A stretch of DNA of 64,000 nucleotides from assembly GCA_029556915.1 (NCBI GenBank), contig JAKQIT010000048.1:166623-230622 (forward strand). The letters run 5' to 3'. This DNA is from Pseudomonadota bacterium. Its GTDB lineage: Bacteria; Pseudomonadota; Gammaproteobacteria; Burkholderiales; Methylophilaceae. Made by a program: the position numbers and the translations under genes. Position 1 is the stretch's first letter, and every line of letters begins with the position of its first letter. The notes below the pieces were generated by a model. It was not told the origin of the DNA and ran no database searches. It saw only the letters and a list, made by a program, of their open reading frames with translations. Shown here in pieces: positions 3,729 to 60,818 of the stretch.

Positions 3729-3761
3729 CTCTGTAAGCCAGTATTCATGAGGCTTCCAGAG
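3729..3761. repeat. Dispersed hairpin repeat, copy 1
   Basis: First of 12 copies of a 33-bp imperfect palindrome, consensus CTCTGNAAGCC, 11-nt loop, GGCTTNCAGAG. Arms here pair at 10 of 11 positions and the complementarity extends outwards to ATGC/GCAT (3726-3764). The loop is agtattcatga. A CTCGGG tail follows at 3774-3779. It lies between the convergent ends of ruvB and the DUF748 gene and could act as a two-way terminator. Confidence 0.9.
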
Positions 3762-3794
3762 CATTGTTTTTCTCTCGGGCGATTATTAGCCGTT

Positions 3795-6700
3795 TTATGG
3801 CGTTTTTTCTGGTGCGTTTTTAGCGTCGTTTTTTTGACTGTTTTGTGTTGCTTCAACAGTTTTATTAGAGGCATTTTTTACGTCTAAAGTCAGCCGCGTA
3901 TTCACAGTTTTAGCTTTGCTATCCGCTTTGCCCACTTCAACTTTATCAATTTTCACACGCTCAATCGCAATGCCAGCATCCACCAACTGTTTTTGAATAG
4001 TCTCAGCACGGGCCTTAGCAAGTGCTTGCAAGTCAGCTTCTTTTACTTCAATACTTGCCGTGAGTTTTTCTTGCGCTTCTTCAAAATGACCCGCTTTGGT
4101 TTTTTCTAGCTTAGAGGCGAGCCGTTTGAGTAAGCCTTTTTTGGTTAAATCATCATGCAATGCATCAATGGCTTTTTGCACGTTTGGGTTGCTTAAATCA
4201 ATCGGGCCAGCTTGTTGGCCGGCTTCAAATTTAATATCCATTTCTTCGGCAACTTGGCGGCGAATGGTACTTTCTTGAATTGCACGTGTGTCGACCGCCT
4301 TGTCAAAACCAGGCACAATACCTAAAGCCAAGCCTTGGCGTTTAGTTAAGGCTGTGCTGACTGCCTTGAGTTTTTCTAATTCCGGAGGTGTTAAGCTTGC
4401 TTTGCCTGCCTCAAAAGTAATGGCTTCAAGCTTATCGCCACTGCCGCCAAACAGCTTGCCAAGAGCACGAAATGGCGCGGTGACAATTTTACCTAGCACA
4501 TTGCGAATGGCTTTCCAGACGATGCTGCCGTAACTAAATTTGGGGTCATCTAAACTGCCAGTAATCGGCAAATCTAGGTCTATCACGCCGTCACTATCTT
4601 CTAAAATGGCAATCGCTAAATCCAGCGGCAAGTTCGCGGCTTCTTTGCTATCTACTTTTTCGCCCAATTTGAGCTTATTAATCACAAATTTGTTTTCTCC
4701 CGCTAATTGGCGCTGCTTGATTTTATATTCTAAATCTACCGATAATTTGCCTGATTCAATTTTACGCCCAGCAAATTTACCAGAATAAGGCGTGAGGCGA
4801 TTCATCTCTAAATTAGTGAAGCTAAGTTTGATGTCGGTAAAATTAGTTGCCTTAAAAGGCTGCAATGCGCCACGCACGCGCGCCGCACCATAGTCATCCA
4901 CCTTGCCATCAAGTTCTACTTGGGCAGTTGTATTGGGGTTAGTAGAAACGCTATTTATTACGCCAGTGAGCGAATGGATTTGGGTACCAAATTGCGGAGT
5001 GAGCGAAAGATCAGCAAATTCTAGGCCCGCGTTTTCAATACGCACGGTTTCAATAGTGACAGGAAAAGCTTCTGGTGAAGAGTCGGCAACGGGAGCTGTT
5101 TCAACAGTCTTTGTAGTAGTGCCTGTTGCCGCGCCAGTCAGTACGGCTTGTGCCATTTCAGTGTTAGTGACTGTTTTTTCTACTTGTGAATCTATAGTCA
5201 CAACTTCCGGTTTTGTTGGTTGAGCGGCATTAGTTGCGGGTTCTACGGCTTCAGAAGAGTTGTTTGTTGTGGCTTCAGTAGCGTTAGTGTTTCGTAATAT
5301 TTTGGCAATATTAGTAGTTTTATCTGCGTTGATAATAAACTTCCCAGAGGGCTTGCTAATATTGAGTGTCGCCATATGCAAGCGATTGGGTGCTAGTGAC
5401 AATTCGAGGTTATTACTGTCCAGTTTTTCCCATGCCAAAAATGACGCATCGGTAGCTTCTTCTACAAGAGAAAGATTATCTACGCTAAAGCCCCCGTTGA
5501 AAGTGAGTGCTAACGTTTTATCGTTGATAACATGCAATTTTCCATTAATGTTACTTGCACCATCGTTAAGTTTAAGCAAAGCAAATTTGTTTAAATATGG
5601 CGCAAATGGCTTAAAGGAAAAGGCAGAAAGTTTTAAATCAACATCGGCTTTGAAAGGCATAGGCGTGAGCTTGCCTTGCGTGTTAAATTGCCCACCTTGC
5701 TTCACAGAAAAACTTGCTTTAACTGGCAAGGCACGCGCCAAATCAAGCGAGGCGTTATTAACTTCCATGTTAAGCTTTTCAACATCAAGTGCTACAGGCT
5801 GAGCCAAGCTACGGTCTTCAATATGTAGTTGGGTATTATCTAACGCTATTTTTTTCAGGTTGACTGCCCAATTTGGCTTGCTAGATTTTGAGGTGAGTTG
5901 CGCGGTTTTTTGGCTGGCTACGGAATGCGTTTCTAATACTTGCAGCCAATTGAGCGGCGCATTAGCGGCTTGTACTACCTCTGTTTTAAGACCAGAAAGC
6001 AAAATGGCCTGCACTTCTACTTTTTGTTTATCTAATGCGATTTCCCCTTGGTTGAGTTGTAGCTTGGCTAAAGTTGCCACAGGTTTTGGTTGTAGGTTAG
6101 ATTTTAGGGTGATGGTGTTCAACTGACTTTGTAGTTTGCTTATCGTCCAAGCATCTTGCGAATTACTGATAGCAAAATTCACATTCGCATCTGTAATATT
6201 GGCCTGCAAAGGATGCACAAAACTTTGATCATCCAAAGTGACTTGCCAATTTTTAAGGGCAATGTCATCTATGGTGATGCTCATAGGCGTATTTTTCGAA
6301 TCTGCTTTTTGCACTTCTGGTGTTGGGCTGGCAGATTTAGCTTCGTTTGAAGCAATAGCAGCTTGCCAATCTAGCATACCCGCTTTGTCGCGCTGAGCAT
6401 TCAAATTGCCCTTTGCTAGCAATACTTGTGCAATGCTGACTTGGTTTTTAGCTAAATCTAATGCGATGTTGTTCACCGCTAATTGCGGTAAATTGAGCAA
6501 CTTATTTTTGCCTTTTGTTACGCCAATTTCATTAAGTTGCACGTTTAATTGCTCGAACTGCACTTGCGCTGGTTGGTTAAATGCGAATTTAGGCAAGGTT
6601 GCATGCATGCTTTTAAGTGCTAAATTTGTGCCGTTGGCTTTGCTCGCATTGAGTGTATCAAGATCAACATCAATGTCTTCAATATCAAGTGATAGCTCAT

Positions 6701-7820
6701 TATTGCTAATAAAATCTAAGCGCGGAAAGTGAGCATCTACTTGCTTTAATGTGAGATTATCCGTGCCACTGGCTGCTGCCACTTCATTTAACTCTAAATG
6801 AACATTTTGCACATGCAATTCTGGTTGATTTTGCATGGAAAAATCTAAACGCGGCGTGGTCAGCTTGGCGTGAGCAAGTTGCAGCTCTGTCGCGCTTTGC
6901 AAAGCACCTTTTATATTGTCAGCAATAAAAGAAATTTGACTGAGTGCAATCTTAGGCTGGTCTTTTACCAGTGAAAAATCGTAAGAAAAACTCGCGCCAA
7001 TATCACCGCTATTGGCTGTAAATGGCAACTCAAGTCCCTTAATAATTTGCAACATTTTAACTAATTTGATGTTTTCTAACGCTACCGCGCCTTTTGAGGC
7101 AACAGGGTTAACACCCATATCGCCTTTCCATTTAAATGCCCCACCATGCTCAGCAAATTTTGCGGCAAATAAATAATTACCTCGATCTTTAGGGAGGGTA
7201 GAAAAACCTTCAAGTTCAAAATCAAGCGGGCTGAGTTCAGCTTTTAACGGTGTAGGGCGGTTGCTGTCACTATATTGCACATTACCTCTTTTAATAGCAA
7301 AGTGCTCAATAACAACCCGAGGCAACGTATTGCTTGGGGCTGGTTTTTCACCTTCATTTAATTTTGCAACTAAGTCAGCCCAGTTGAGTTTGCCTTGAGG
7401 TGAAATGGCAATCAGCCCTTTAGGGGCGGTCAACTCGACTTCTTTGAGTTTCCAAGCCCAGTCAAACAAACCACTGGCTTCTAAATCAACCACTAGTTTT
7501 TCAAAACTTGCGAGCGGCGTACCATTTTTGTCAGTTAAGTTAAAATTTTCTATTGTAGTTTTTAAGCGGAAAGGATCAAACGCAGCACGCCCAACACTGG
7601 CTTTGCTGGCAAGCTGTTTTTCTGCAAACCACGGCACTAGTTTTTTTGCGAGAGGGTTGATGCCAAAATAGCTAAAAAGCAAGTAAAACAAACAGAGGCC
7701 GATGACAATTTTAGCGGGTAAGCTAACTAAGAGCGGTTTAAGTTTTTTAAGCATGGAATTGATGAGTGGCTTTTGCATTAGCGTAAGCTTAACAAAATTA
7801 ATTAGCTTGGTGTAACTCAT
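3795..7820 (-). CDS. Large AsmA-like DUF748 envelope protein
   Basis: Protein of about 1341 residues with one N-terminal membrane anchor (about residues 33-53 from this start) and a very long periplasmic part rich in short beta repeats. The pattern, with segments such as GKLNWADL and LEYKIKQRQLAGENKF and a charged helical C-terminus, matches DUF748 proteins, relatives of the AsmA/TamB/YhdP lipid-bridge group. By family analogy it may help maintain or transport envelope lipids; this is inference. The first in-frame ATG (7820) was chosen because the longer frame starts with TTG; ATGs at 7778 and 7754 are also possible. A threonine/alanine-rich linker lies near the middle. It faces ybgC divergently. 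Confidence 0.8.
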   Translation of the reverse strand: MSYTKLINFVKLTLMQKPLINSMLKKLKPLLVSLPAKIVIGLCLFYLLFSYFGINPLAKKLVPWFAEKQLASKASVGRAAFDPFRLKTTIENFNLTDKNGTPLASFEKLVVDLEASGLFDWAWKLKEVELTAPKGLIAISPQGKLNWADLVAKLNEGEKPAPSNTLPRVVIEHFAIKRGNVQYSDSNRPTPLKAELSPLDFELEGFSTLPKDRGNYLFAAKFAEHGGAFKWKGDMGVNPVASKGAVALENIKLVKMLQIIKGLELPFTANSGDIGASFSYDFSLVKDQPKIALSQISFIADNIKGALQSATELQLAHAKLTTPRLDFSMQNQPELHVQNVHLELNEVAAASGTDNLTLKQVDAHFPRLDFISNNELSLDIEDIDVDLDTLNASKANGTNLALKSMHATLPKFAFNQPAQVQFEQLNVQLNEIGVTKGKNKLLNLPQLAVNNIALDLAKNQVSIAQVLLAKGNLNAQRDKAGMLDWQAAIASNEAKSASPTPEVQKADSKNTPMSITIDDIALKNWQVTLDDQSFVHPLQANITDANVNFAISNSQDAWTISKLQSQLNTITLKSNLQPKPVATLAKLQLNQGEIALDKQKVEVQAILLSGLKTEVVQAANAPLNWLQVLETHSVASQKTAQLTSKSSKPNWAVNLKKIALDNTQLHIEDRSLAQPVALDVEKLNMEVNNASLDLARALPVKASFSVKQGGQFNTQGKLTPMPFKADVDLKLSAFSFKPFAPYLNKFALLKLNDGASNINGKLHVINDKTLALTFNGGFSVDNLSLVEEATDASFLAWEKLDSNNLELSLAPNRLHMATLNISKPSGKFIINADKTTNIAKILRNTNATEATTNNSSEAVEPATNAAQPTKPEVVTIDSQVEKTVTNTEMAQAVLTGAATGTTTKTVETAPVADSSPEAFPVTIETVRIENAGLEFADLSLTPQFGTQIHSLTGVINSVSTNPNTTAQVELDGKVDDYGAARVRGALQPFKATNFTDIKLSFTNLEMNRLTPYSGKFAGRKIESGKLSVDLEYKIKQRQLAGENKFVINKLKLGEKVDSKEAANLPLDLAIAILEDSDGVIDLDLPITGSLDDPKFSYGSIVWKAIRNVLGKIVTAPFRALGKLFGGSGDKLEAITFEAGKASLTPPELEKLKAVSTALTKRQGLALGIVPGFDKAVDTRAIQESTIRRQVAEEMDIKFEAGQQAGPIDLSNPNVQKAIDALHDDLTKKGLLKRLASKLEKTKAGHFEEAQEKLTASIEVKEADLQALAKARAETIQKQLVDAGIAIERVKIDKVEVGKADSKAKTVNTRLTLDVKNASNKTVEATQNSQKNDAKNAPEKTP

Positions 7821-7899
7821 TGTTTTAAGCGTTGCAAACAAAATGGTTGCAAATTTGTAACGTTAAACCACAGTAAATTTTGCTGTGTTAAAATTTGGC

Positions 7900-8310
7900 A
7901 TGACTAATATTCAACAATTTAGCTGGCCGATACGCGTTTATTACGAAGATACGGATGCAGGTGGTGTGGTTTATCACTCTAATTACCTAAACTTTATGGA
8001 GCGTGCGCGAACAGAATGGCTGCGAGCCCTAGGGTTTGAACAAACCACTTTGTTAAATGAATTAGGTGTGATGATTGTGATTCATAGTCTTAGCATCGCT
8101 TTTAAAAGCCCAGCAAGATTTAATGATGCGCTACAAGTGCATTGTACGCTCGCTAACGCGGGGCGCACTAGCATGGATGTTACACAAGCAATTTACCGAG
8201 ATGGCGTTCAACTGATTGAAGCGCAAGTGAAGGCTGTGTTTGTAGATGCGCAAAGTTTTAGGCCAGTGCCGATTCCGCCAGCGATTAAGCAAGCGATGTT
8301 AACCCTATAA
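7900..8310 (+). CDS. ybgC: Tol-Pal system acyl-CoA thioesterase YbgC
   Basis: Hotdog-fold thioesterase that hydrolyses acyl-CoA and is encoded at the head of tol-pal operons. The motif YEDTDAGGVVYHSNYLNFMERAR near residues 15-37 includes the catalytic aspartate in DTDAGG. It is about 136 residues long from the ATG at 7900; an in-frame GTG lies 15 nt upstream and neither start has a clear Shine-Dalgarno sequence. It starts 79 bp from the divergent DUF748 gene and precedes tolQ by 31 bp, so it is probably the first gene of the tol-pal operon. Confidence 0.93.
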   Translation: MTNIQQFSWPIRVYYEDTDAGGVVYHSNYLNFMERARTEWLRALGFEQTTLLNELGVMIVIHSLSIAFKSPARFNDALQVHCTLANAGRTSMDVTQAIYRDGVQLIEAQVKAVFVDAQSFRPVPIPPAIKQAMLTL

Positions 8311-8341
8311 AAATATCTAACATTTTGAAAGTGGAGCGAAT

Positions 8342-9022
8342 ATGCAAGAAACTGTAGCAACTGATATGTCTATATTCTCGCTAGTCATGGGTGCGAGTCT
8401 GCCTGTGCAGTTAGTGATGCTCATCTTGCTCATAACCTCTGTATTTTCTTGGTGGTATATTTTCATTAAAGTGGCGACGGTAAAACGCGCTGAGACCAAT
8501 GCTGAAGAGTTTGAAAAAGCTTTTTGGTCTGGTGGCGATTTAAATAAACTCTATGAAGGTGTTGGCATGGGGCGCCGCAAACCGCAAGGCATGGCGAGTA
8601 TTTTTGAAGCAGGTTTTAAAGAGTATGCTAGAAACAGGCAACAAGGACGAACAGATGTTTCAGAAATTATGGAAGGTACAAGACGCGCGATGCGTGCAAC
8701 CTATAACCGTGAAATGGATGATTTGGACGCGCATTTGCCATTTTTAGCTTCAGTTGGTTCTGTAAGCCCGTATATTGGGTTGTTTGGCACGGTATGGGGC
8801 ATCATGAACTCGTTTCGTGGCCTGTCTAATGTGGCGCAAGCTACGCTGAGCCAAGTGGCACCAGGTATTGCCGAAGCGCTTGTAGCAACGGCGATAGGTC
8901 TGTTTGCGGCGATTCCTGCGGTGATTGCTTATAACCGTTTTGCGAGTTCTGTGGATAGACTTTCAGTGCGTTATGAAAGTTTTATGGAAGAGTTTACTAA
9001 TATTCTGCAAAGAAAGAGCTAA
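8342..9022 (+). CDS. tolQ: Tol-Pal proton channel subunit TolQ
   Basis: Inner-membrane protein that with TolR forms the proton-driven motor energising TolA during outer-membrane invagination. Its 226 residues carry three membrane segments, near 16-38, 135-160 and 170-192, and the conserved stretch FLASVGSVSPYIGLFGTVWGIM typical of the MotA/TolQ/ExbB family. GTGGAG lies 5-10 nt before the ATG. tolR follows after 3 nt. Confidence 0.98.
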   Translation: MQETVATDMSIFSLVMGASLPVQLVMLILLITSVFSWWYIFIKVATVKRAETNAEEFEKAFWSGGDLNKLYEGVGMGRRKPQGMASIFEAGFKEYARNRQQGRTDVSEIMEGTRRAMRATYNREMDDLDAHLPFLASVGSVSPYIGLFGTVWGIMNSFRGLSNVAQATLSQVAPGIAEALVATAIGLFAAIPAVIAYNRFASSVDRLSVRYESFMEEFTNILQRKS

Positions 9023-9025
9023 ATC

Positions 9026-9424
9026 ATGGCGCGTACTCGTAAACGTCGCGTAATGAACCAAATCAATGTTGTTCCCTACATTGATGTAACGCTCGTATTG
9101 CTGGTGATTTTTATGGTGACAGCTCCTATGACTAACCCTGGGGTAGTGGATTTGCCAAAAGTAGGACAGGATTTAAACCAAAATGTCACTGAAGTCCCCA
9201 TTGTTATTACAGTAAAAAAAGACGGTAGTACCGAGTTGAATGGTAAAACCTTTAGTCGCGATAAGTTACTGTTGGAAATTAAAAAAATACAAAGCAAAAC
9301 TCCAAAAAAAGTGGTTGTTGCAGCAGATGAAAAAACCGAGTTTGGGCAAGTGGCGCAAATATTTGATATGCTAAAAGTGTCCAAAGTAGAAAAAGTTGGG
9401 CTTTATTTTAAGCCTGCAAAATAA
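9026..9424 (+). CDS. tolR: Tol-Pal motor subunit TolR
   Basis: ExbD/TolR family protein of 132 residues with a single membrane helix near 18-38. The segment NVVPYIDVTLVLLVIFMVT contains the conserved aspartate that carries protons through the TolQR channel. The rest is a periplasmic domain that contacts the cell wall and TolA. Its stop codon is followed directly by the tolA ATG, which indicates translational coupling. Confidence 0.97.
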   Translation: MARTRKRRVMNQINVVPYIDVTLVLLVIFMVTAPMTNPGVVDLPKVGQDLNQNVTEVPIVITVKKDGSTELNGKTFSRDKLLLEIKKIQSKTPKKVVVAADEKTEFGQVAQIFDMLKVSKVEKVGLYFKPAK

Positions 9425-10249
9425 ATGCTACGTAAGACTGAAAAAGAAACGAATTGGAAAGCGGGAGTCTATGCCATTTTGGTACATGTGGTCTTGCTCG
9501 GCGCATTGCTGATTTCATTTAATTGGAAATCAGCCCACCCTGTATTAAATGTGGCAGAAGTTGAGCTTTGGGATAGCCTGCCTAGCAGTGAGATACCGCC
9601 CCCACCTTTGCAAGAACCTAAATCAGAACCGAAGCCTGAACCTAAAGTTGAGCCGCCACCTATCATTAAGGAAGAGCCTAAACCTGAGTCAAAAGTTGAT
9701 GAGCCCAAGGTGGATATTGCGCTAGAAAAGAAAAAGGAAGAAGAAAAGCTTAAAAAGTTAGAAGAGGATAAATTAAAAAAAGAAAACGCTGACAAACTTA
9801 AAAGATTACAAGCGGCATTGAACGAATCTGCCCCTGACAACACTAAAAATGAGAAAAAAGCCAAAGATGATGCTTTGAAAAAACTTCAGCAAGATACGTT
9901 AGCGGAAGAAAATGCAGCTGGCGAACAGCAGGCAAAAGCCGCTAAAGCCGCAGCTAGTAAAGGTGTAATAAATGAATATAGAAGAAAAATTCAAGATAAA
10001 ATTAAAGGAAATGTGAATAATAGTTTATGTGGCGATGGCGACCCATTGCTAAAGTTTCAAATCAGCTTAATGCCTACGGGTGAGTTGGTTGGAAACCCAA
10101 AACTGACTAAATCTAGTGATATAGAAGCTTGTGACGAGGCTGTTGAGCGCGCCATTATCGCCTCTCAGCCTTTGCCGATGCCAGAAGATGTAGAATTAAA
10201 ATCAGAATTTAAAAACCTTAATTTAACATTTACGCCCAACAAAGAGTGA
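9425..10249 (+). CDS. tolA: Tol-Pal energy-transducing protein TolA
   Basis: Protein of 274 residues linking the inner-membrane TolQR motor to TolB/Pal. A membrane helix at about 14-34 is followed by a proline/glutamate/lysine-rich stretch (about 55-100, with PKPEP-like repeats), a lysine/glutamate/alanine-rich helical region to about 180, and a compact C-terminal domain with IKGNVNNSLCGDGDPLLKF. Order and domains match TolA; the TonB-like proline-rich section and the C-terminal domain are conserved in style rather than sequence, as is normal here. Confidence 0.95.
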   Translation: MLRKTEKETNWKAGVYAILVHVVLLGALLISFNWKSAHPVLNVAEVELWDSLPSSEIPPPPLQEPKSEPKPEPKVEPPPIIKEEPKPESKVDEPKVDIALEKKKEEEKLKKLEEDKLKKENADKLKRLQAALNESAPDNTKNEKKAKDDALKKLQQDTLAEENAAGEQQAKAAKAAASKGVINEYRRKIQDKIKGNVNNSLCGDGDPLLKFQISLMPTGELVGNPKLTKSSDIEACDEAVERAIIASQPLPMPEDVELKSEFKNLNLTFTPNKE

Positions 10250-10387
10250 TAATTTGCTTTCACTTTTGAGCGTAACTCTTTGTAACAAAGTGTAAATCGT
10301 GTAGCATGTAATTCAAAATACGGTTAAATTAAGCGAAAAATAATAATCAGGGGCTTTTAAAGTTTGAGATTGAGTGAATATAAAGCG

Positions 10388-11671: not shown

Positions 11672-11739
11672 CCCACTCATAATGTAATAGCAATTTTTTT
11701 AGAGATTATTTTTAGCATTCAAATTTTATGGAGAACAAA

Positions 11740-12318: not shown

Positions 12319-12339
12319 ACGATAAAGCACGGTTAAACG

Positions 12340-12369
12340 AGGCTTCTATCAGTCAAATGATAGAAGCCT
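12340..12369 (+). terminator. Hairpin between pal and cpoB
   Basis: Perfect 12-bp inverted repeat with a 6-nt loop (arms 12340-12351 and 12358-12369), followed by tcatgctttttac. It probably ends or attenuates transcription after pal, lowering cpoB expression relative to pal. The following T-run is imperfect, so read-through is likely. Confidence 0.75.
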
Positions 12370-12416
12370 TCATGCTTTTTACCTTCAAGCTTTTTATATT
12401 GATTAGAGTTGAAATT

Positions 12417-13298: not shown

Positions 13299-13320
13299 AA
13301 AAATCTCCCGAGAGATTTTT
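13299..13320 (+). terminator. Terminator-like hairpin after cpoB
   Basis: Perfect 9-bp inverted repeat (13299-13307 and 13312-13320) with loop CCGA and a run of five T in the right arm; on the other strand it also ends in T. It directly joins dispersed hairpin copy 2 and seems to be part of the long form of that repeat. Confidence 0.75.
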
Positions 13321-13324
13321 AATG

Positions 13325-13357
13325 CTCTGGAAGCCGCATGGATATTGGCTTCCAGAG
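13325..13357. repeat. Dispersed hairpin repeat, copy 2
   Basis: Perfect 11-bp arms (CTCTGGAAGCC / GGCTTCCAGAG), loop gcatggatatt. This is the best full-length copy: a CCCGAG hairpin lies on the left (13299-13320) and a GAAGATG signature on the right (13368-13374). It sits between cpoB and queE. Confidence 0.92.
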
Positions 13358-13478
13358 GTGCATAAAAGAAGATGTGCAAAATAAGCACATTTTAAAGTGC
13401 TTTTTTGGACATATTTTTCCATTCAGCAAATGCTACAAATCACGGTAAAATAACGTCCAATTAAATTGGGTGTCATGG

Positions 13479-18674: not shown

Positions 18675-18707
18675 CTCTGGAAGCCGCATGGTTATTGGCT
18701 TGCAGAG
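18675..18707. repeat. Dispersed hairpin repeat, copy 3
   Basis: Arms CTCTGGAAGCC / GGCTTGCAGAG (10 of 11 pairs), loop gcatggttatt. GAAGATG follows at 18718-18724 and CCCGAG lies in the last codons of xerD (about 18657-18662), so the repeat flank reaches into the coding sequence. Confidence 0.9.
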
Positions 18708-20304: not shown

Positions 20305-20357
20305 GCCAAAATTCAAGCTATTTTAGACGCTTTTTTAACACATCTTCCTTTTGACAC

Positions 20358-20390
20358 CTCTGCAAGCCAGTATCTATGCGGCTTACAGAG
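20358..20390. repeat. Dispersed hairpin repeat, copy 4
   Basis: Arms CTCTGCAAGCC / GGCTTACAGAG (10 of 11 pairs), loop agtatctatgc. A long copy: CATCTTC on the left (20341-20347) and AAAAATTTCTCGGGTGATTTTTAG on the right (20395-20418). The right flank overlaps the TAA of tsaD (20415-20417), so this element forms the end of both convergent genes. Confidence 0.92.
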
Positions 20391-20414
20391 GCATAAAAAT
20401 TTCTCGGGTGATTT

Positions 20415-27849: not shown

Positions 27850-27882
27850 CTCTGTTAGCCAGTATCTATGCGGCTTCCAGAG
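27850..27882. repeat. Dispersed hairpin repeat, copy 5
   Basis: Arms CTCTGTTAGCC / GGCTTCCAGAG (9 of 11 pairs), loop agtatctatgc. The right flank (ctattttttcacgcagtattttc) is a diverged form of the CTCGGG hairpin. It lies between the convergent nnrD and beta-CASP genes. Confidence 0.85.
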
Positions 27883-30041: not shown

Positions 30042-30099
30042 ATAAGCTCCATTTTTATTTTAATAAACGAGTGCAAAATGCCCCGAGCGATTTTAATGC

Positions 30100-30132
30100 C
30101 TCTGCGAGCCGCATAGAATAAGGCTTGCAGAC
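30100..30132. repeat. Dispersed hairpin repeat, copy 6
   Basis: Diverged arms CTCTGCGAGCC / GGCTTGCAGAC, loop gcatagaataa. CCCCGAG lies on the left (30081-30087) and GAAGATG on the right (30143-30149). It sits between the universal stress protein gene and the hypothetical gene upstream of it on the map. Confidence 0.85.
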
Positions 30133-30156
30133 CGATGCAAAAGAAGATGTTTAATT

Positions 30157-34592: not shown

Positions 34593-34625
34593 GGCTGGAA
34601 GCCGCATGGATACTGGCTTGCAGAG
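34593..34625. repeat. Dispersed hairpin repeat, copy 7 (loop inverted)
   Basis: Diverged left arm GGCTGGAAGCC, right arm GGCTTGCAGAG, loop gcatggatact. The CTCGGGCG tail lies on the right (34639-34646), on the opposite side from that expected for this loop orientation. It sits between convergent genes. Confidence 0.85.
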
Positions 34626-39223: not shown

Positions 39224-39320
39224 GGTCTTCACTCAAATCTAAAGCAAATATATTGCTAGCAAAATTGAGTATTTCAAAACACAAAAAAATCTCTATCTTA
39301 ATCAAACATCTTTTTGCCAC

Positions 39321-39353
39321 CTCTGCAAGCCAGTATCCATGAGGCTTCCAGAG
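39321..39353. repeat. Dispersed hairpin repeat, copy 8
   Basis: Arms CTCTGCAAGCC / GGCTTCCAGAG (10 of 11 pairs), loop agtatccatga. Long copy with CATCTTTT on the left (39307-39314) and AAAAATTTCTCGGG on the right (39358-39371). It lies in the 273-bp gap between the kinase gene and ccoI; I see no gene in this gap. Confidence 0.92.
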
Positions 39354-39496
39354 GCATAAAAATTTCTCGGGTTGGATTAGCCGTTTTTTTAGAGAAAGAA
39401 CGATTCAATTTTAGGGTGGTCTGACTGAACAATAGGCACACACTTGCTCAGTATTAAAGCGATATAATGCAATATTGATTGGCCATACTTTAATTT

Positions 39497-50917: not shown

Positions 50918-50950
50918 CCCTGCAAGCCAGTATCTATGCGGCTTCCAGAG
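50918..50950. repeat. Dispersed hairpin repeat, copy 9 (loop inverted)
   Basis: Arms CCCTGCAAGCC / GGCTTCCAGAG, loop agtatctatgc. CCCCGAG is on the left (50899-50905) and GAAGATG on the right (50961-50967), as in copy 2, but the loop reads the other way. It lies in the 458-bp gap between ctaB and ccoN, which otherwise holds the FNR-controlled ccoN promoter and AT-rich sequence without a gene. Confidence 0.9.
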
Positions 50951-52735: not shown

Positions 52736-52740
52736 GGATA

Positions 52741-53379: not shown

Positions 53380-53392
53380 CGGGAGATTAGTC

Positions 53393-53530
53393 ATGGATAT
53401 CAATACACTTCGTACTATCGTTACTATCACAGGCCTAGTTATGTTCGTGGCACTGATGATTTGGGCGTGGCGCAATCGGAAATCTAAAGACTTTAATGAG
53501 GCAGCTGAACTGCCCTTTAAAGAAGATTAA
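53393..53530 (+). CDS. ccoQ: cbb3-type oxidase subunit CcoQ
   Basis: Small membrane subunit of 45 residues: one helix (RTIVTITGLVMFVALMIWAW) and a polar tail RNRKSKDFNEAAELPF. It stabilises the oxidase in other bacteria. GGGAG lies before the ATG at 53393; the longer frame runs into ccoO and is not used. Confidence 0.92.
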   Translation: MDINTLRTIVTITGLVMFVALMIWAWRNRKSKDFNEAAELPFKED

Positions 53531-53625
53531 GCTGGATGCATTTGATGTAATGGTAAGTTGATACGTAATTCTAATGCAATGAATATCGTGTCAATTTACC
53601 TTACAAAAAACTAAAGGAAAATAAA

Positions 53626-54528: not shown

Positions 54529-54567
54529 GTTATTTTTAGTGGTTTATTTGGTTGGCTAAGGTAAAAA

Positions 54568-56043
54568 ATGAGTGAAAAACCCGTTGATAAAACGGCAGTA
54601 AAAGTATCAGAAAAAGCGATACCTTTAGAAGATGTAAAGGTATCGCTCTATAAGGCGCAAGCCAAGATATATCCAAAAAACGTTACAGGGATTTTCACAA
54701 GTTGGCGTTGGGTAATGGTGTGGGTTACCCAAATATTTTTTTATGGCGTCCCGTGGTTAGATTGGGGTGGGCGTCAAGCATTACTGTTTGATTTAGAAGG
54801 CAAACGATTCTATATATTTAATCTTGTTTTCTATCCACAAGATCTTATATACCTCACTTTAATACTTATTATCTCAGCTTTAGCGCTGTTTCTGTTTACA
54901 GCCGTAGCAGGACGTTTGTGGTGCGGGTTTACTTGTCCTCAAACTGTTTATACAGAGATTTTTCTTTGGATAGAGGCCAAAATTGAAGGTGACCGTCCAG
55001 CGCGCATGAAGCTAGATGCGTCGCCAATGTCTGCCAAAAAGCTTTTTATTAAATTTAAAAAACATTTAATTTGGATAATATTTTCTTTATTCACTGGGTT
55101 TACATTTGTTGGGTATTTCTCTCCAATACGTGAATTAGCAGGGAGTTACTTAAGCTTTAATCTAGGTCCTTGGGAAACCTTTTGGGTGTTTTTTTATGGC
55201 TTTGCTACTTATGGCAATGCTGGTTTTATGCGTGAACAAGTATGCAAATACATGTGTCCCTATGCGCGTTTTCAAAGTGCCATGTTTGATGATGATACGC
55301 TCATTGTCACTTATGATACGTTACGTGGCGAACCACGTGGTGGACGTTCACGCAAGGCGACGCAAGAAGAACATAAATTAGGAGCATGCGTAGAATGTAG
55401 TCTTTGCGTTCAGGTCTGTCCAACAGGTATAGACATACGTAATGGTTTGCAATATGAGTGTATCCAGTGCGGCGCATGTGCGGATGTTTGTGATACCGTA
55501 ATGGATAAAATGGGTTATGAAAAAGGATTGATTAAATTTTCTACCCAAAATGCGCTCGCCAATCGTTGGACGCAAAGTCAAGTAATGCAACATATTAAGC
55601 GTCCTCGTGTACTGATATACACGGCGATTCTTGGTGCTTTGGTCATAGGGTTACTCGCAAGCTTGTGGATACGAACACCATTTAGGGTAAACGTGGTACG
55701 CGATGGTGTGATGGGACGTATGACCAATGATGGTAAGATAGAAAACGTGTATCGCTTACAAATCATGAACGGTACTGAATTGACGCAGCACTATCAGCTT
55801 AAAGTCAATGGCCTAAAAGATGTGGAGATTGAGGCAGAAGCTGCTGAAGAGCAATCAGGTAGTGATACACACATGAAGTCTATTGAAGTAAAACCAACAG
55901 AATCACGTTGGGTAATTGTTGATTTAAAAGTCCCAGATGGGTCATTAAAATCGGGCTCGCATAAAATTGAGTTTGAAGTGTTTTCACAAGAAGACAAAGA
56001 TACCGTACAAGAAAAATCAGTATTTTTGGTGCCAAGGAACTAG
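54568..56043 (+). CDS. ccoG: cbb3 oxidase accessory protein CcoG
   Basis: Polytopic ferredoxin-like protein (FixG/RdxA) of 491 residues that acts as a copper reductase for oxidase assembly. Five membrane segments are expected; the cysteine pair WCGFTCPQT and MREQVCKYMCPYARFQ lie in the first half and two 4Fe-4S motifs, CVECSLCVQVCP and CIQCGACADVC, near 275-315. A C-terminal immunoglobulin-like domain follows. Confidence 0.96.
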   Translation: MSEKPVDKTAVKVSEKAIPLEDVKVSLYKAQAKIYPKNVTGIFTSWRWVMVWVTQIFFYGVPWLDWGGRQALLFDLEGKRFYIFNLVFYPQDLIYLTLILIISALALFLFTAVAGRLWCGFTCPQTVYTEIFLWIEAKIEGDRPARMKLDASPMSAKKLFIKFKKHLIWIIFSLFTGFTFVGYFSPIRELAGSYLSFNLGPWETFWVFFYGFATYGNAGFMREQVCKYMCPYARFQSAMFDDDTLIVTYDTLRGEPRGGRSRKATQEEHKLGACVECSLCVQVCPTGIDIRNGLQYECIQCGACADVCDTVMDKMGYEKGLIKFSTQNALANRWTQSQVMQHIKRPRVLIYTAILGALVIGLLASLWIRTPFRVNVVRDGVMGRMTNDGKIENVYRLQIMNGTELTQHYQLKVNGLKDVEIEAEAAEEQSGSDTHMKSIEVKPTESRWVIVDLKVPDGSLKSGSHKIEFEVFSQEDKDTVQEKSVFLVPRN

Positions 56044-56083
56044 TTAATGCAGTTTGGCTAAACAGCCTTTATTAGGACAGAAT

Positions 56084-56362
56084 ATGAGCTCAACAGAATT
56101 AAAAGCAAAGGTAACTGACACCAAGCCATGGTGGAAATACGGTTATGTATGGTTTTTAATTTCTGGACCATTGTTAGTAATTATTGCTGGCGTTATTACG
56201 ATTTATCTAGCCGTTAGCCGACCAGACCCAGTAGTGGATGAAAATTACTACCAGCACGGCATTGAAATTAATAAAACGTTAGATGCTGAAAGAGATTCAA
56301 TGGCACCTGCAGGCCAAGCGCGTAATCACGCTGCAACTGGCATTAAGCCGCAGCAAAAATAA
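56084..56362 (+). CDS. ccoH: cbb3 oxidase assembly protein CcoH
   Basis: FixH-family membrane protein of 92 residues with one helix (YGYVWFLISGPLLVIIAGVITIYLAV) and the hallmark DPVVDENYYQHGIEINKTLD. AGGAC lies before the ATG at 56084, so the TTG-led longer frame is not used. It is convergent to fnr with a 26-bp gap. Confidence 0.9.
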   Translation: MSSTELKAKVTDTKPWWKYGYVWFLISGPLLVIIAGVITIYLAVSRPDPVVDENYYQHGIEINKTLDAERDSMAPAGQARNHAATGIKPQQK

Positions 56363-56388
56363 TGCTGCTGTGGCGCAAGCCGCAAAGT

Positions 56389-57153
56389 TTATGCGCAAGT
56401 CTGAGGGTTGAATATTTTTTTAAGCGCTTCTGAATCTAGGATTTTCACGTAGCGTTGTTTTACTTCAATAATACCTTCATCGCTAAATTTTGAAAATGTG
56501 CGGCTAACAGTTTCTAACTTCATCCCCAAATAACTGCCAATTTCTTCGCGTGTCATTCTGAGCATGAGTTCAGATTGAGAGAAGCCACGGGCATGCAAGC
56601 GTTGCACTAAGTTAAGTAAAAACGCGGCCAAGCGTTCTTCTGCACGCATATTTCCAAGCAACATCATCACGCTATTTTCACGTACGATTTCTCGGCTCAT
56701 AATTTTATGGATGTGACGCTGCAATACAGGGAACTCACGCGATAACTCTTCAACGTCAGCAAATGGCATAACGCAGACTTCCGCGTCTTCTAAAGCAATA
56801 GCGCTACAATTGTGCTGATCCGTCACAATGCCATCCAAGCCCATGATTTCACCCGCCATTTGAAAGCCGGTGACTTGTTCACGTCCATCGGCGGCTGATA
56901 CGCAGGTTTTAAAAAAACCAGTACGAATCGCATAAAGTGATTTAAAACTATCACCAGCGCTATATAACTGCTCACCTTGTTTAATTTTACGACGTTTTTC
57001 TACCACTTCATCGAGACGATGCATATCTTCAGATTTAAAACCGATTGGCATGCAAAGTTCACGCAAATTGCAATTCGAACATGCCACTTTAAAAGTGCCG
57101 AGCATATTCTCTGGTGTGATTTCAATCGGTTTTTGTGTTGTATCTAGCGTCAT
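56389..57153 (-). CDS. fnr: Oxygen-sensing transcription regulator Fnr
   Basis: Crp/Fnr-family regulator of 254 residues. The 4Fe-4S ligands are visible: C25, C28 and C34 in ACSNCNLRELC and C127 in EDAEVCVMPF, which aligns with Cys122 of E. coli Fnr. The helix-turn-helix EEIGSYLGMKLETVSRTFSKF carries the E--SR contact residues that read TTGAT. It is expected to activate ccoNOQP, hemN and ompW, each of which has a matching box in this window. Confidence 0.96.
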   Translation of the reverse strand: MTLDTTQKPIEITPENMLGTFKVACSNCNLRELCMPIGFKSEDMHRLDEVVEKRRKIKQGEQLYSAGDSFKSLYAIRTGFFKTCVSAADGREQVTGFQMAGEIMGLDGIVTDQHNCSAIALEDAEVCVMPFADVEELSREFPVLQRHIHKIMSREIVRENSVMMLLGNMRAEERLAAFLLNLVQRLHARGFSQSELMLRMTREEIGSYLGMKLETVSRTFSKFSDEGIIEVKQRYVKILDSEALKKIFNPQTCA

Positions 57154-57327
57154 AATTCAATCTTAACTTTGAATGCATAAGCATACTCTTTTAGTTATTT
57201 TGTTGCCAGTTGAATATGCGTATAAAAATTGGATGATATTGGCAGAATAATAGACAAAAAAGTGCCAAAAACTAGGTATTAAAATGGCAAAAAATGGTGC
57301 GCAATTTCCCCCGTGAAAAAATCATCG

Positions 57328-57360
57328 CCTTGAGAGCCGCATAGAATATGGCTTGCAGAG
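57328..57360. repeat. Dispersed hairpin repeat, copy 10
   Basis: Diverged arms CCTTGAGAGCC / GGCTTGCAGAG, loop gcatagaatat, in the 303-bp divergent gap between fnr and hemN. CCCCCGTG lies on the left (57308-57315) and GAAGATA on the right (57371-57377). The remaining gap holds the hemN promoter. Confidence 0.85.
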
Positions 57361-57386
57361 GAGGTGCAAGGAAGATATTGAAATAT

Positions 57387-57428
57387 TTGATGTGCATCAA
57401 AGAGTTTTAGCCGACTATCGCGCATAGT
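57387..57428 (+). promoter_or_regulatory. FNR-dependent promoter of hemN
   Basis: Perfect FNR box TTGAT-gtgc-ATCAA (57387-57400) with a -10-like CATAGT at 57423-57428, the class II spacing. The predicted start near 57435 gives a leader of about 22 nt. Confidence 0.85.
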
Positions 57429-57456
57429 GACACGCTAGATTAGGAGCAATCTCAAC

Positions 57457-58893
57457 ATGAATAAAACAGCGATGCAAACAAATGTGATTCAAGCCAATGA
57501 TGCGCCCGCCATCACACCAGATATGCTGCAAAAATATGATGTGGCAGGCCCACGTTATACTTCATATCCTACGGCTGACCGATTTGTAGAGGCATTTACA
57601 GAAAATGCCTACCTGCAAGCGCTAGAACAAAGACGCATGACGGGTGCAAATCTTCCATTGTCCATTTATGTACACATTCCGTTTTGCGAGTCATTGTGCT
57701 TTTTTTGTGCGTGCAACAAAATTGTGACTAAACATCATGAGCGAAGTGCGGAATATTTAACTTATTTGCGCCACGAAATTGCCTTGCACCTTGAACATTT
57801 AGCACCAAAAGATATTTACAAAGCGCCAACCATTTCACAATTGCATCTAGGTGGTGGATCGCCAACATTTTTTTCTGATAGTGAACTATCAGAACTCATG
57901 GCAATGCTAAAAGAAAACTTCATTTTTGCTGAGGGTGGTGAATACTCTATAGAGGTTGACCCGCGCACGGTAAACGACGCACGTTTAGCACATTTGGCCT
58001 CATTAGGATTTAATCGATTAAGTTTTGGGGTACAAGATTTTGACGAGCAAGTACAAAAAGCGGTGCATCGTATTCAGCCTGAAAGCCAAGTGTTTTCATT
58101 AGTTGAAACAGCGCGGCGCTTGGGTTTTGACTCCGTAAATGTAGATTTGATTTATGGCTTGCCTAAGCAATCACCCGCCTCTTTTACGCGCACATTGGCG
58201 CAAATAGTTTCGCTAAAGCCAGACAGAGTCGCGCTATATGCGTATGCCCATTTGCCAGAGCGCTTTAAGCCGCAACGCCGCATTGATACTTATGCTTTGC
58301 CTGAGGCGGCTGATAAAATTGCCATGTTGTCAAACGCGATTTCTACCTTGATGAGTGCAGGTTATGTGTATGTAGGCATGGATCATTTTGCCCTGCCAGA
58401 AGATGACTTGGCGGTTGCTAAGCGCCAGGGTCGGCTACACCGTAATTTTCAAGGTTATAGCACGCAGCCAGATTGCGACTTAATAAGTTTGGGCGTGTCA
58501 GCTATCGGCCGTGTGGGGAATACCTACAGCCAAAATGCCAAAACCATTGAAGAATATTACGACGCGCTGAAGCAAAATCGCTTGCCAATCGTGCGCGGTC
58601 TGGCGCTATCGCGGGATGATTTAGTGCGCCGCGCGGTGATTATGGCTATTATGTGCCAAGGTGAACTGCAATACGAGGCGATTGAACTAGCTTATATGAT
58701 TGATTTTAAATCTTATTTTGCAAATGAGCTGGTGATGCTAAAAGAGCAGGAAGCCACAGGTATGGTGGAGTTAGATGATGAAGGTTTGCTAGTGACCGAT
58801 ACAGGATGGTTTTTTGTGCGTGCCATTGCCATGGTGTTTGACCGCTACTTGCAAACGGATAGAAATCGGGCGCGTTTTAGCAAAATCATCTAA
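57457..58893 (+). CDS. hemN: Oxygen-independent coproporphyrinogen III oxidase HemN
   Basis: Radical SAM enzyme for haem synthesis without oxygen, 478 residues. Y-T-S-YP substrate motif GPRYTSYPTADRF near 32-44, cluster motif CESLCFFCACNK near 76-87, and the HemN signatures LHLGGGSPTFF, EVDPRTV, RLSFGVQDF and YAHLPERFKPQRRID. FNR control fits its role. Confidence 0.97.
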   Translation: MNKTAMQTNVIQANDAPAITPDMLQKYDVAGPRYTSYPTADRFVEAFTENAYLQALEQRRMTGANLPLSIYVHIPFCESLCFFCACNKIVTKHHERSAEYLTYLRHEIALHLEHLAPKDIYKAPTISQLHLGGGSPTFFSDSELSELMAMLKENFIFAEGGEYSIEVDPRTVNDARLAHLASLGFNRLSFGVQDFDEQVQKAVHRIQPESQVFSLVETARRLGFDSVNVDLIYGLPKQSPASFTRTLAQIVSLKPDRVALYAYAHLPERFKPQRRIDTYALPEAADKIAMLSNAISTLMSAGYVYVGMDHFALPEDDLAVAKRQGRLHRNFQGYSTQPDCDLISLGVSAIGRVGNTYSQNAKTIEEYYDALKQNRLPIVRGLALSRDDLVRRAVIMAIMCQGELQYEAIELAYMIDFKSYFANELVMLKEQEATGMVELDDEGLLVTDTGWFFVRAIAMVFDRYLQTDRNRARFSKII

Positions 58894-58922
58894 AGTCGCC
58901 AAAATGATTTAAAATTGCAGTA

Positions 58923-59618
58923 ATGCAATCACCCTTATTACTCACAGCCTTTTTTATGGGCTTGGCGGGCGGCCCGCACTGCATTGCCATGTGTGGCGCG
59001 GCTTGTGCCAGCTTGCAGCAAGGCCAAATTCAAAATCAGGCACAAGGCTGGCAAATGTGGAAATTTCACGCTGGCAGGTTGTTGGGCTATGCCGCTTTGG
59101 GCGCAATAGCAGCAGCATCAGTCAAAAGTTTAGCGTGGTTTACTGAGCAAACCACCGCATTACATCCGTTGTGGACTTTTTTTCATGTGTTAATCTTTGC
59201 ATGGGGGCTCATACTGCTCATTTATGCGCGTCAGCCAGTTTGGGCTGAGGGCATAGGGCGCAAAATTTGGGCAAAAGTGCGTCAATTATCTAGCTTGCCT
59301 GGCGGCATATTTGTCACTGGGGTGCTATGGGCATTATTGCCTTGCGGGTTATTATATTCTGCATTATTAGTGGCTTCACTCAACGCTAATCCTATCAATG
59401 GTGGGCTTACGATGGCAGCTTTTGCCTTTGGCACCAGCATTTCTTTGATGATAGGTCCTTGGTTGTGGCTAAAACTTAAAAGTGGCAAACTGATAGCGCG
59501 TAGCAAGTGGTTCACCGAAGATGCCAGCATGCGCCTTGCTGGTTTGCTCCTAGCGGGTGCCGCAGGATGGGCAATATGGATGGATTTAATGCACCAAACC
59601 AAAGTTTGGTGCGTTTAG
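58923..59618 (+). CDS. DsbD_2/TauE-like membrane protein linked to cbb3 biogenesis
   Basis: Membrane protein of 231 residues with six predicted helices. GLAGGPHCIAMCGAAC at the start and WALLPCGLLYSALLVASL in the middle carry the paired cysteines typical of the DsbD_2 (PF13386) family. Such genes accompany ccoGHIS in many bacteria and are thought to help copper or redox delivery; this is by analogy. It follows hemN by 29 bp and is probably co-transcribed. Confidence 0.85.
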   Translation: MQSPLLLTAFFMGLAGGPHCIAMCGAACASLQQGQIQNQAQGWQMWKFHAGRLLGYAALGAIAAASVKSLAWFTEQTTALHPLWTFFHVLIFAWGLILLIYARQPVWAEGIGRKIWAKVRQLSSLPGGIFVTGVLWALLPCGLLYSALLVASLNANPINGGLTMAAFAFGTSISLMIGPWLWLKLKSGKLIARSKWFTEDASMRLAGLLLAGAAGWAIWMDLMHQTKVWCV

Positions 59619-59662
59619 CTTGCAATATTAACCTTTGTTTTTACTCCGAGAAAAAATGAATG

Positions 59663-59751
59663 CCCTGTACCAGTGCTTGGCATCACCATTCTCGCTTAGT
59701 GCTAAAGCACTAAGTCGAATGCGAAAGCCGCATGGAATATGGCTTGCAGGG
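59663..59751. repeat. Dispersed hairpin repeat, copy 11, split by an insertion
   Basis: The left arm CCCTG (59663-59667) and its remainder AAGCC (59725-59729) are separated by about 57 bp; the loop gcatggaatat and right arm GGCTTGCAGGG (59741-59751) are normal. The insertion contains a perfect 9-bp inverted repeat CTTAGTGCT / AGCACTAAG (59695-59703, 59706-59714). It resembles a neisserial-type repeat by eye. Confidence 0.75.
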
Positions 59752-59792
59752 TAGGTCAAATAAAGTGTGCTTAAAATCAAGCTAAAAATAGG

Positions 59793-59825
59793 CAAAAAAA
59801 TGCCCCTGTAAAACATCACAGGGGC
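59793..59825 (-). terminator. Terminator of ompW
   Basis: Read on the minus strand: GCCCCTGT / ACAGGGGC arms (59818-59825 and 59802-59809) with an 8-nt loop, followed by a run of T (complement of 59794-59800). Confidence 0.92.
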
Positions 59826-59870
59826 GAGTGTGGAAACCTAAAAGGATTTAACTGAATCTATAGCAATTGC

Positions 59871-60581
59871 TTAGAACTTTTTACCAAAGCCAACGCTGAT
59901 GACCAACGGGTCAATGTCAAGGCTGTCAATACGTTTGTAGCCAGCAGCTAACTCAGGCACATTGATTTTTACGTCGGTATCAAACCAGATTTTTTTCACG
60001 TCAAAGTTAACTAACCAACCATCTTTCAAGTTCACATCGAAACCGGCCTGAATCGCTGGACCCCAGCTATTGCGGTCAATACGGATTGGTTTTTTACCTA
60101 AAGCCGTGTCTGCAGTCAAACCATTGTCCATGGCGCGCACATAAGATACACCAGCACCCAAATATGGGTCAAAAGTTTGATCTGGCATAAAGTGCCATTG
60201 CGCTGTTAGAGTTGGTGGTAGCAAGTTTACTTCACCTAAAGCTCTTTTATTTAAAGCAGCACCCTTGCTAGAAGTTTGAACGTCATGCTTAGTACCTAAC
60301 GCTAAAATCAACTCTAACGCAATGTTTTTGGTGACGTAGTAAGACAAATCTAATTCAGGGATGGTGTTGCTATCTACTTGTAAGTTAGCACTTCCGCTAC
60401 CGTATAACAAATCAGCAGTACCAGCACCGTAAACTTTATCTGTTTGCTCACCCAATTTGCTGCTCTCACTTGGGTTAATGTTTGTAGCACGTAAGCGTAC
60501 AACGATGTCGCCGGCTTCGGCTTGTGCCAAAACAGGTGCAAATACAGCAGCCATTGTTAATGCTAATAACGTTTTTTTCAT
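59871..60581 (-). CDS. ompW: Outer membrane protein OmpW
   Basis: Eight-stranded outer-membrane barrel of 236 residues including a signal peptide ending AQA near 21. Motifs GDIVVRLRATNINP, PELDLSYYVTKNIALELILALGT, PTLTAQWHFMP, YLGAGVSYV and the C-terminal aromatic residue GFGKKF fit OmpW, a channel for small hydrophobic molecules. The FNR box in front suggests induction at low oxygen. Confidence 0.95.
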   Translation of the reverse strand: MKKTLLALTMAAVFAPVLAQAEAGDIVVRLRATNINPSESSKLGEQTDKVYGAGTADLLYGSGSANLQVDSNTIPELDLSYYVTKNIALELILALGTKHDVQTSSKGAALNKRALGEVNLLPPTLTAQWHFMPDQTFDPYLGAGVSYVRAMDNGLTADTALGKKPIRIDRNSWGPAIQAGFDVNLKDGWLVNFDVKKIWFDTDVKINVPELAAGYKRIDSLDIDPLVISVGFGKKF

Positions 60582-60626
60582 TTTAACTTTCCTTTGTTAA
60601 TAAGTTTAATCAAATTCGATGGTTGA

Positions 60627-60668
60627 ATCTTAGAGGAGGCATTGTCTAAAGCATTTGATATGTATCAA
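60627..60668 (-). promoter_or_regulatory. FNR-dependent promoter of ompW
   Basis: Perfect FNR box TTGAT-atgt-ATCAA (60655-60668) and, on the minus strand, a -10-like TAAGAT (60627-60632), again class II spacing with a start near 60620. Confidence 0.82.
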
Positions 60669-60785
60669 ACAAACAATAGCTAAAGACGGTTTGGTTTTAG
60701 CTGTTGTTTTTATGCAAATAATAAAAAAGTGCAATATTAAAAGTGCATTTTTAATGCTGAAAAGTATCCGTCTTCATTTAAGCAC

Positions 60786-60818
60786 CTCTGCGAGCCAGTA
60801 TCCATGCGGCTTGCAGAG
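60786..60818. repeat. Dispersed hairpin repeat, copy 12
   Basis: Arms CTCTGCGAGCC / GGCTTGCAGAG, loop agtatccatgc, between the ompW promoter and the 3' end of the TPR gene. CTTC lies on the left near 60771; the right flank (aagaagaaat) is diverged. Confidence 0.88.

Follow-up and report, generated by a model that had tools for sequence, protein, structure and literature searches.

What is a short hairpin doing at the ends of so many bacterial genes? The question is raised by the window, a stretch of 64,000 nucleotides from a Methylophilaceae genome (assembly GCA_029556915.1, contig JAKQIT010000048.1; hereafter the genome is called G000), in which an earlier note listed 12 dispersed 33-bp hairpins. 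We found all 12 in the sequence (Table 1), five of them as exact matches to a strict pattern with 11-bp arms that occurred 0 times in 100 shuffles, and an alignment of the 12 copies had 15 invariant columns out of 37. The suggestion that they belong to a dispersed, genome-wide family was borne out by a count over the whole genome, where 288 places lie within 1 mismatch of the strict pattern compared with 0 in a reversed control. The total is estimated at ~330 copies, a figure scaled from a 464-kb sample in which a weight-matrix scan found 75 copies, the strict pattern found 65, and a Markov control of the sample gave 0 matches in the copy scan. The G000 assembly comprises 3.28 Mb in 165 contigs (completeness 99.99, contamination 5.65), and several of the genomes compared with it are metagenome assemblies. 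A search of the whole window with Rfam at gathering score returned no family except one tRNA, and in the open-access literature searched we found no description of such a repeat family.

Anatomy and placement of the repeat

The repeat unit consists, in order, of an A box (CCCGAG), a core made up of CTCTGNAAGCC, an 11-nt loop and GGCTTNCAGAG, and a B box. The arms are mostly CNCTGNNAGCC and GGCTNNCAGNG, and the loop varies between species. The A box has the consensus YCGAG; in the 81 copies with a recognised box, among 86 oriented copies, CCGAG or a close variant begins 5' of the core at a distance of 17 bp (79 copies) or 18 bp (2 copies). The B box begins at about +11 with GATG, GAAG and similar motifs and is less conserved than the A box, both boxes lying ~30 bp from the palindrome centre. 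The earlier note had correctly placed CCCGAG on one side of the hairpin and GAAGATG on the other, but CCCGAG, which it describes as a hairpin, does not by eye generally belong to a hairpin of its own. Its estimate of ~75-85 bp describes the boxed unit, which is indeed present, but not the whole site, which reaches ~300 bp when its phased flanks are counted. Those flanks, the main result of the present analysis, had gone unreported in it.

The loop is asymmetric, and in G000 it points one way in 71 of 92 copies and the other way in 19, with 2 unclear (69, 17 and 7 of 93 copies by a looser rule). By eye the whole core, and not the loop alone, appears to be inverted, since the loop carries the mismatched arm bases along with it. 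The copy starting at 59663 was correctly placed at the start of its left arm; it is split by a 56-nt insert and its remaining core runs from 59724 to 59751. A near-identical insert (3 differences by eye) lies in a second copy at L050:10501-10556 with different outer flanks, and because two copies at unrelated loci share it in this way, the repeat unit spreads to new places by some mechanism.

The claim of compensating changes in the arms held on some measures and not on others. Among 21 units drawn from two species, both sides had changed in 16 cells, compared with 8.8±2.2 in shuffles (reached in 2 of 500), and the covariation score was 0.166 compared with 0.101 (1 of 500), whereas pairs with a compensating change (4 vs 3.7) and pair types (8 vs 7.8) were not above shuffles. 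Arm position 6 was unpaired in 13 of the 21 units. The predicted hairpin pairing is moderately backed by covariation.

With junction classes taken from our own simple gene caller, 31 elements of the 464-kb sample lay at the 53 convergent junctions, 35 at the 300 tandem and 2 at the 54 divergent ones, an enrichment of convergent junctions over the rest (Fisher P-value 4e-14). These 68 of the 75 copies agree with the statement that all are at gene ends or between genes; five others were inside predicted genes, and two were at stretch edges. Stretch-edge cases were left out of the comparison of orthologous sites with G160, of the comparison of arm periodicity, of the split of the G160 copies by the A box and of the counts of element-free junctions. 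On the 240-kb stretch C12 the elements were more evenly spaced than in a junction-weighted random choice (CV 0.57 vs 0.90, P-value 0.002), and two shorter stretches ran in the same direction without significance (P-value 0.104 and 0.174).

Table 1. Copies of the repeat in the window and one example of a full phased site
Feature	Position	Strand	Remarks
33-bp palindromic core	3729..3761	-	unit (A box CCCGAG to B box) ~3709-3781; convergent junction; R2 79.8 bits
33-bp core	13325..13357	+	unit ~13305-13377; R2 70.7 bits
33-bp core	18675..18707	+	convergent junction; R2 47.9 bits
33-bp core	20358..20390	-	unit ~20338-20410; convergent junction; R2 70.2 bits
33-bp core	27850..27882	-	A box degenerate; convergent junction; R2 51.8 bits
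33-bp core	30100..30132	+	loop subtype GCATAGAATAA; unit ~30080-30152; R2 54.5 bits
33-bp core	34593..34625	+	inverted relative to its own A and B boxes; convergent junction; R2 39.6 bits
33-bp core	39321..39353	-	unit ~39301-39373; R2 62.0 bits
33-bp core	50918..50950	-	inverted relative to its own A and B boxes; R2 57.1 bits
33-bp core	57328..57360	+	predicted divergent junction (1 of 2 such in the 464-kb sample); R2 47.0 bits
Core split by 56-nt insert (59668-59723)	59663..59751	+	CCGAG at 59646-59650; no R2 match at E<=1e-4
33-bp core	60786..60818	-	B box present, A box unrecognisable; R2 39.3 bits
Full ~300-bp phased site (example), centre 3745	3595..3895	.	phased-template score 8.68, top of the 464-kb sample

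Helically phased flanks

Around the palindrome centre of the G000 copies, A/T content rises and falls once every 11.43 bp (a bootstrap 95% interval of 11.40-11.50), in the same way on both sides and as far out as ~150 bp. Near the core the A/T fraction swings from ~0.97 to 0.4 on both sides, and the phasing power was 1.60 compared with a null maximum of 0.17; copies <200 bp from stretch ends and the 2 of 92 of unclear orientation were left out of this analysis. In the outer zone (96-160 bp) the power was 0.258 vs 0.061, and 0 of 1000 random shifts of ±20 bp reached the observed value. Furthermore, the phases of the single arms were coherent (R 0.87 for 184 arms of 92 copies, 95% of them within 60 degrees). 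The A/T maxima on the left and right agree within 0.2 bp (~39.5, 51, 62.4, 73.8, 85.3 and 96.7 bp), and extrapolated inward they fall at ~±5, 17, 28 and 39.5 bp, that is, at half-integer turns from the dyad, as is likewise the case in the geometry of the nucleosome. At the A/T phase the enrichment is 3.4-fold for AA/TT and 1.3-fold for TA, and the phasing signal is carried chiefly by AA/TT; the flank sequence is not common to the copies, and the tracts use both A and T. Convergent and tandem copies had amplitudes of 0.186 and 0.179 at equal phase, and phasing strength did not drop as the core diverged (rho 0.12 and 0.01, n 75).

When we scanned with a phased template, 33 of the 38 top peaks coincided with an element centre to within 1 bp, a result that is partly circular because the template was built from G000 copies; the peaks in the related genome G160 are free of this circularity. 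Peaks above score 5 that lie off any element (43 of 91 in G000) numbered 9.3 per 100 kb in G000 and 11.8 in G160; the corresponding figures for Markov sequence were 2.4 and 3.0. Away from the elements, phased patches in themselves are not rare, a point against the reading that we prefer below, and since real DNA yields more of them than Markov sequence, the argument rests on the gene ends. There, 1 of 278 element-free 3'-end junctions reached score 5, compared with 48 of 75 elements, and the element-free gene-end arms had a median power of 0.044 vs 0.043 in random DNA, the element arms one of 0.214.

The phasing continues through the coding sequence of the flanking genes. Coding sequence around 66 elements, sampled at 7971 positions lying 45-150 bp away, had an amplitude of 0.102 and a phase of 178 degrees, nearly that of 5889 intergenic positions (amplitude 0.178, phase 168 degrees). 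We compared these codons with those of G117, in which no element was found in the 200 kb examined and whose proteins differ by ~25% in sequence, so that third positions are near saturation. Relative to G117, the G000 codons follow the phase, being shifted towards A/T at the A/T phase (+76/-38) and towards G/C at the G/C phase (+61/-95). Permutations, which treat positions as independent and thereby flatter the P-values, reached the result in 0 of 2000 cases overall, in 2 for third, 5 for first and 417 for second positions. At 23 gene ends with G117 orthologues the third-position amplitude was 0.112 in G000 and 0.014 in G117. The codon differences at 29 gene ends compared with G160 ran the same way as those with G117, and the orthologous G160 codons were themselves weakly periodic, in another phase. 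For 20 elements of G000 a flank could be tested; in 6 of these cases a G160 element of either kind, boxed or un-boxed, lies no more than 300 bp from the end of the orthologous gene, compared with a background of 36 of 352 G160 gene 3' ends near an element; the other 14 have no counterpart in the examined part of G160. Taken together, the phase in coding DNA, the codon differences, the unphased empty ends and the lack of fading lead us to prefer a reading in which the flanks would be kept by selection, or would be imprinted by mutation around a structure that holds its position stably, to one in which they would be a gradually decaying relic of target choice.

To what extent is this arrangement conserved? 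A search named R2, which covers the core and boxes and reaches 36 bp from the centre, was derived from 13 units of G000 and 8 of G160. At E<=1e-6 it detected the boxed unit in 12 of the 52 genomes of the genus. Genome counts by R2 and by a second search, R1, are lower bounds, and R2 copies number at least 94 each in G000, G167 and G168, at least 81 in G155, at least 59 in G160 and at least 1-3 in seven others; G155, G167 and G168 contributed no sequence to R2. The phasing was repeated in G155, G160, G167 and G168 (R 0.80, 0.93, 0.85 and 0.94), with maxima near 39, 50.5, 62 and 73 bp and fits on single-side average profiles with an R-squared of 0.26-0.66. These 69 sites were the best listed and not a random choice (19 of 81 in G155, with 2 of 38 arms left out, 14 of 59 in G160, and 16 and 20 of at least 94 each in G167 and G168). 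Their coding flanks were phased too (5583 positions, amplitude 0.109), and the site with its phased arms is thus conserved in five species. The loops of the four added species differ, with TTTATTTATAA, GCCTACAGAGC and TTTATCTACAA among them. A CsrA-type RNA site, considered because some loops carry GGA, was rejected since the loops vary freely.

Readings of the site

One may ask whether the repeat is a REP or REPIN family mobilised by a RAYT. The earlier note was accurate in stating that the window has no RAYT-type transposase: the single Y1 transposase match of the genome, a RAYT, sits outside it. The 3' end of this gene runs into an element, so that the last residues of the RAYT are element sequence, and 20 other places in G000 match them; another element adjoins a broken RAYT in G167 (L361). 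To this extent the idea of a RAYT flanked by the same unit found support. Against it, R2 matched only 3 of 26 RAYT loci, including those of G155 and G167, namely L031, L361 and, weakly, L093 (E 0.0044), with no match at the three G155 loci examined, and R1, run on 21 RAYT loci of other members of the family, gave a single match, a weak one at L093. A canonical GTAG hairpin stood beside the RAYT gene in 4 of 6 loci inspected (L031, L093, L360 and L361; none by the RAYT in L363 and L365 when scanned), and the one upstream of the G000 RAYT is single-copy in the genome at <=3 mismatches. NF047646 matched in 9 of 18 core-bearing genomes, 8 of them over the cut-off, and in neither G038 nor G068, each of them 99% complete. 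In the species with the boxed element, G155 and G167 had matches over the cut-off and G160 a 37-position fragment below it, and there was no RAYT match in G168 with its many elements. By eye, the aligned units carry no GTAG/GGAG-type or CGTC tag at the hairpin foot, their flanks being YCGAG and a variable B box. The repeat is a high-copy dispersed intergenic palindrome as REPs and REPINs are, and it lacks their foot tag and a cognate RAYT flanked by the repeat. We regard a RAYT-mobilised family as extremely improbable, and a RAYT/REPtron origin was judged unlikely from the RAYT loci with their own GTAG hairpins and from the element-rich G168 without a RAYT.

Among known systems, gyrase sites are the closest analogue of these phased repeat sites. 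The E. coli gyrase motif has a 36-bp centre and symmetric arms with a 10.75-bp periodic GC, and strong gyrase sites (phage Mu SGS and the 130-bp E. coli motif) have helically phased A/T arms around such a centre (PMC6379681); the Methylotenera repeat likewise has symmetric phased A/T arms around a centre of ~36 bp. It differs in its longer arms, in being dispersed with a conserved palindrome, and apparently in being opposite in phase to the Mu right arm. Counted from the annotated cut, the A/T tracts of that arm lie by eye at ~+34, 46, 58 and 68.5, displaced by half a turn from the maxima of the repeat (39.5, 51, 62.4 and 73.8) in a comparison with one sequence and a weak fit (R-squared 0.15). 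The left arm of the Mu site has no such tract pattern. E. coli REP/BIME elements are likewise palindromes present in many copies at the 3' ends of genes, in convergent or unidirectional contexts; they are gyrase targets and have a proposed role in relieving transcription supercoils (PMC3733652), whereas for the Methylotenera repeat no GTAG tag or RAYT dependence was seen and 300-bp phased flanks enter the genes. An E. coli REP phasing control (16 REPs in 7 clusters, 250 kb) was a sample too small to judge by. GTAG/CGTC REPs and RAYT REPtrons are short intergenic hairpins too, and the CGTC class is described as sometimes without a dedicated transposase (PMC3733652); in contrast, tag tetranucleotides were not seen in the Methylotenera repeat, and a RAYT association only in a minority of loci and species. 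It has also been reported that curved DNA of ~75 bp pins plectonemes (PMC6301789) and that the ~11-bp A-tract periodicity of bacterial genomes can be read as supercoil-related (PMC4132750, PMC1242344). These signals share A/T-phased DNA and a supercoil-linked period of ~11 bp with the repeat but are diffuse or at promoters, whereas the repeat family has a fixed dyad and is enriched at gene ends. As to the intrinsic curvature over ~75 bp or more that marks a plectoneme-pinning site, what was seen here is phased AA/TT tracts, which may curve the DNA.

We consider it probable that each copy marks the centre of a DNA-architectural site of ~300 bp. The short palindrome would sit at the dyad, with the A and B boxes beside it and A/T tracts every 11.43 bp outward. 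Because the bend period is above the helical repeat of 10.5 bp, the path would be a right-handed superhelix; this handedness comes from geometry and from a crude bend model, which gave a positive sign at 10.5 bp too. Two structures would share this geometry: the DNA could wind around a protein complex whose handedness is positive, as that of gyrase is, or the site could keep the end loop of a negatively supercoiled plectoneme in place, in which case the palindrome would lie at the tip and might extrude as a hairpin. An RNA hairpin or a single-stranded intermediate of transposition would account for the covariation of the stem just as well as a cruciform. A wrapped or plectonemic structure, any protein involved and a benefit to the host are what we infer from the sequence. 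Because the elements are enriched at convergent ends and, on one stretch, evenly spaced, they may help to manage the supercoils that transcription generates or to fix topological domains.

The sites could instead be strong DNA gyrase sites, in which the enzyme would cut the palindrome as its G segment and the arms would be wrapped by the two C-terminal domains of GyrA. Their layout is that of the E. coli motif (PMC6379681), E. coli REPs are among the targets of the enzyme (PMC3733652), and positive supercoils meet at convergent ends, where the elements are enriched and from which gyrase would relieve them as proposed for the REPs. However, the period is 11.43 and not 10.75 bp, the arms extend to 150 and not 66 bp, and the half-turn offset from the Mu right arm counts, as far as one weakly fitted sequence can, against gyrase cutting at the dyad. 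Both the identity of the sites as gyrase targets and the proposed relief of supercoils there seem rather unlikely to us. The target-choice reading weighed above would make the repeat a selfish, REP-like one whose enzyme inserts into gene-end DNA that is already curved or wrapped, the flanks being a footprint without host function. Elements that integrate into wrapped DNA are known for a symmetric, periodic target preference, and the copies here do move, as seen from the shared insert and from the 14 elements without a G160 counterpart; the phased patches outside elements would offer such targets. Those patches, however, are scarce at element-free gene 3' ends, whose arms are as unperiodic as random DNA, the phasing does not fade in diverged copies, and the codon differences follow the phase, so that we find a purely selfish repeat doubtful.

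Gene-end placement and stem covariation would also suit an RNA element, a 3'-UTR hairpin terminating transcription or protecting mRNA ends, as REPs are often explained (PMC3733652). Such an element would have to accommodate both orientations in tandem contexts (loop sense in 11 and antisense in 23 of 34, P-value 0.06; A box P-value 0.12), loops that differ between species and, by eye, no regular U-run after the hairpin. It leaves the 300-bp symmetric duplex pattern that enters genes unexplained, and we hold it to be very unlikely.

Going beyond the architectural site itself, we put forward tentatively, as a possibility that we rate below an even chance, that these sites are a bacterial counterpart of positioned chromatin. 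They would be two-fold symmetric phased particles of ~300 bp, nucleated by a palindrome, encoded partly in synonymous codons, placed by preference at convergent ends, right-handed wrapped or plectonemic, and fixing supercoil domains in five Methylotenera species with dozens to hundreds of them in each. In the published accounts consulted, bacterial wrapping or supercoil-positioning signals are averages over many degenerate sites, whereas here single sites are phase-locked. With an alignable dyad seen in five species, sequence-fixed topological domains become testable, and so does the codon cost to the flanking genes. Should the sites prove to be wrapped by a protein, this would be an architectural system not described before or else gyrase siting taken to an extreme.

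An un-boxed relative of the core

A second, un-boxed relative of the core has the loop GCATGGATATT and stems that are variable and, by eye, mostly well paired. R1, which finds mostly this relative, matches at E<=1e-6 at least 23 of the 150 family genomes, the un-boxed core being the more widespread of the two. No phased flanks were found around 34 of its copies in g22 genomes or 6 in G137. The un-boxed core may be the ancestor of the boxed unit or a separate element. In G160 the 28 R1 copies are a mixture, and a split by the A box gave 10 of 31 boxed. The copies of this genome, mostly un-boxed, were distributed as 12 at 43 convergent, 14 at 265 tandem and 0 at 43 divergent junctions, with 2 in genes.

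Rearranged and intragenic copies

Among 92 copies of the element from the window's own genome, G000, we found 19, roughly one in five, whose 33-bp core is reversed with respect to the boxes on either side. At two unrelated loci the left arm was broken by a nearly identical 56-nt insert, which has an inverted repeat of its own. Five copies fell within genes predicted by a simple in-house caller in a 464-kb sample of G000, and three of these five had weak core scores (14.3, 22.9 and 20.5).

Positions of rearranged and intragenic element copies in G000
Feature	Position	Remark
Core inverted relative to boxes	window 34593, 50918	17 further G000 copies
56-nt insert in left arm	window 59668-59723; L050:10501-10556	
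Copies within predicted genes	contig C12 about 75411, 111086, 163737; C14 about 103040; C16 about 216010	

Related cores lacking the boxes

In the related family of cores without boxes, found in other Methylophilaceae genomes (loci L158-L177; G038, G137, G068, G101 and G111), the flanks showed no phasing, the loop GCATGGATATT was conserved, and the stems were variable and mostly paired.

RAYT genes and the element

The sole gene for a REP-associated tyrosine transposase (RAYT) in G000 (contig C14, L031:1423-1947) has its 3' end within a copy of the element (about 1873-1945), and its C-terminal residues are therefore repeat-encoded. Upstream of this gene lies a GTAG hairpin, the canonical REP-type hairpin of RAYTs, which is single-copy. 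In a relative, G167, a boxed element (L361:1350-1422) adjoins a RAYT gene carrying an internal stop; a GTAG hairpin pair brackets that gene, and the boxed element sits outside the pair. One genome of the genus, G146, held ten RAYT-family matches, several with internal stops.
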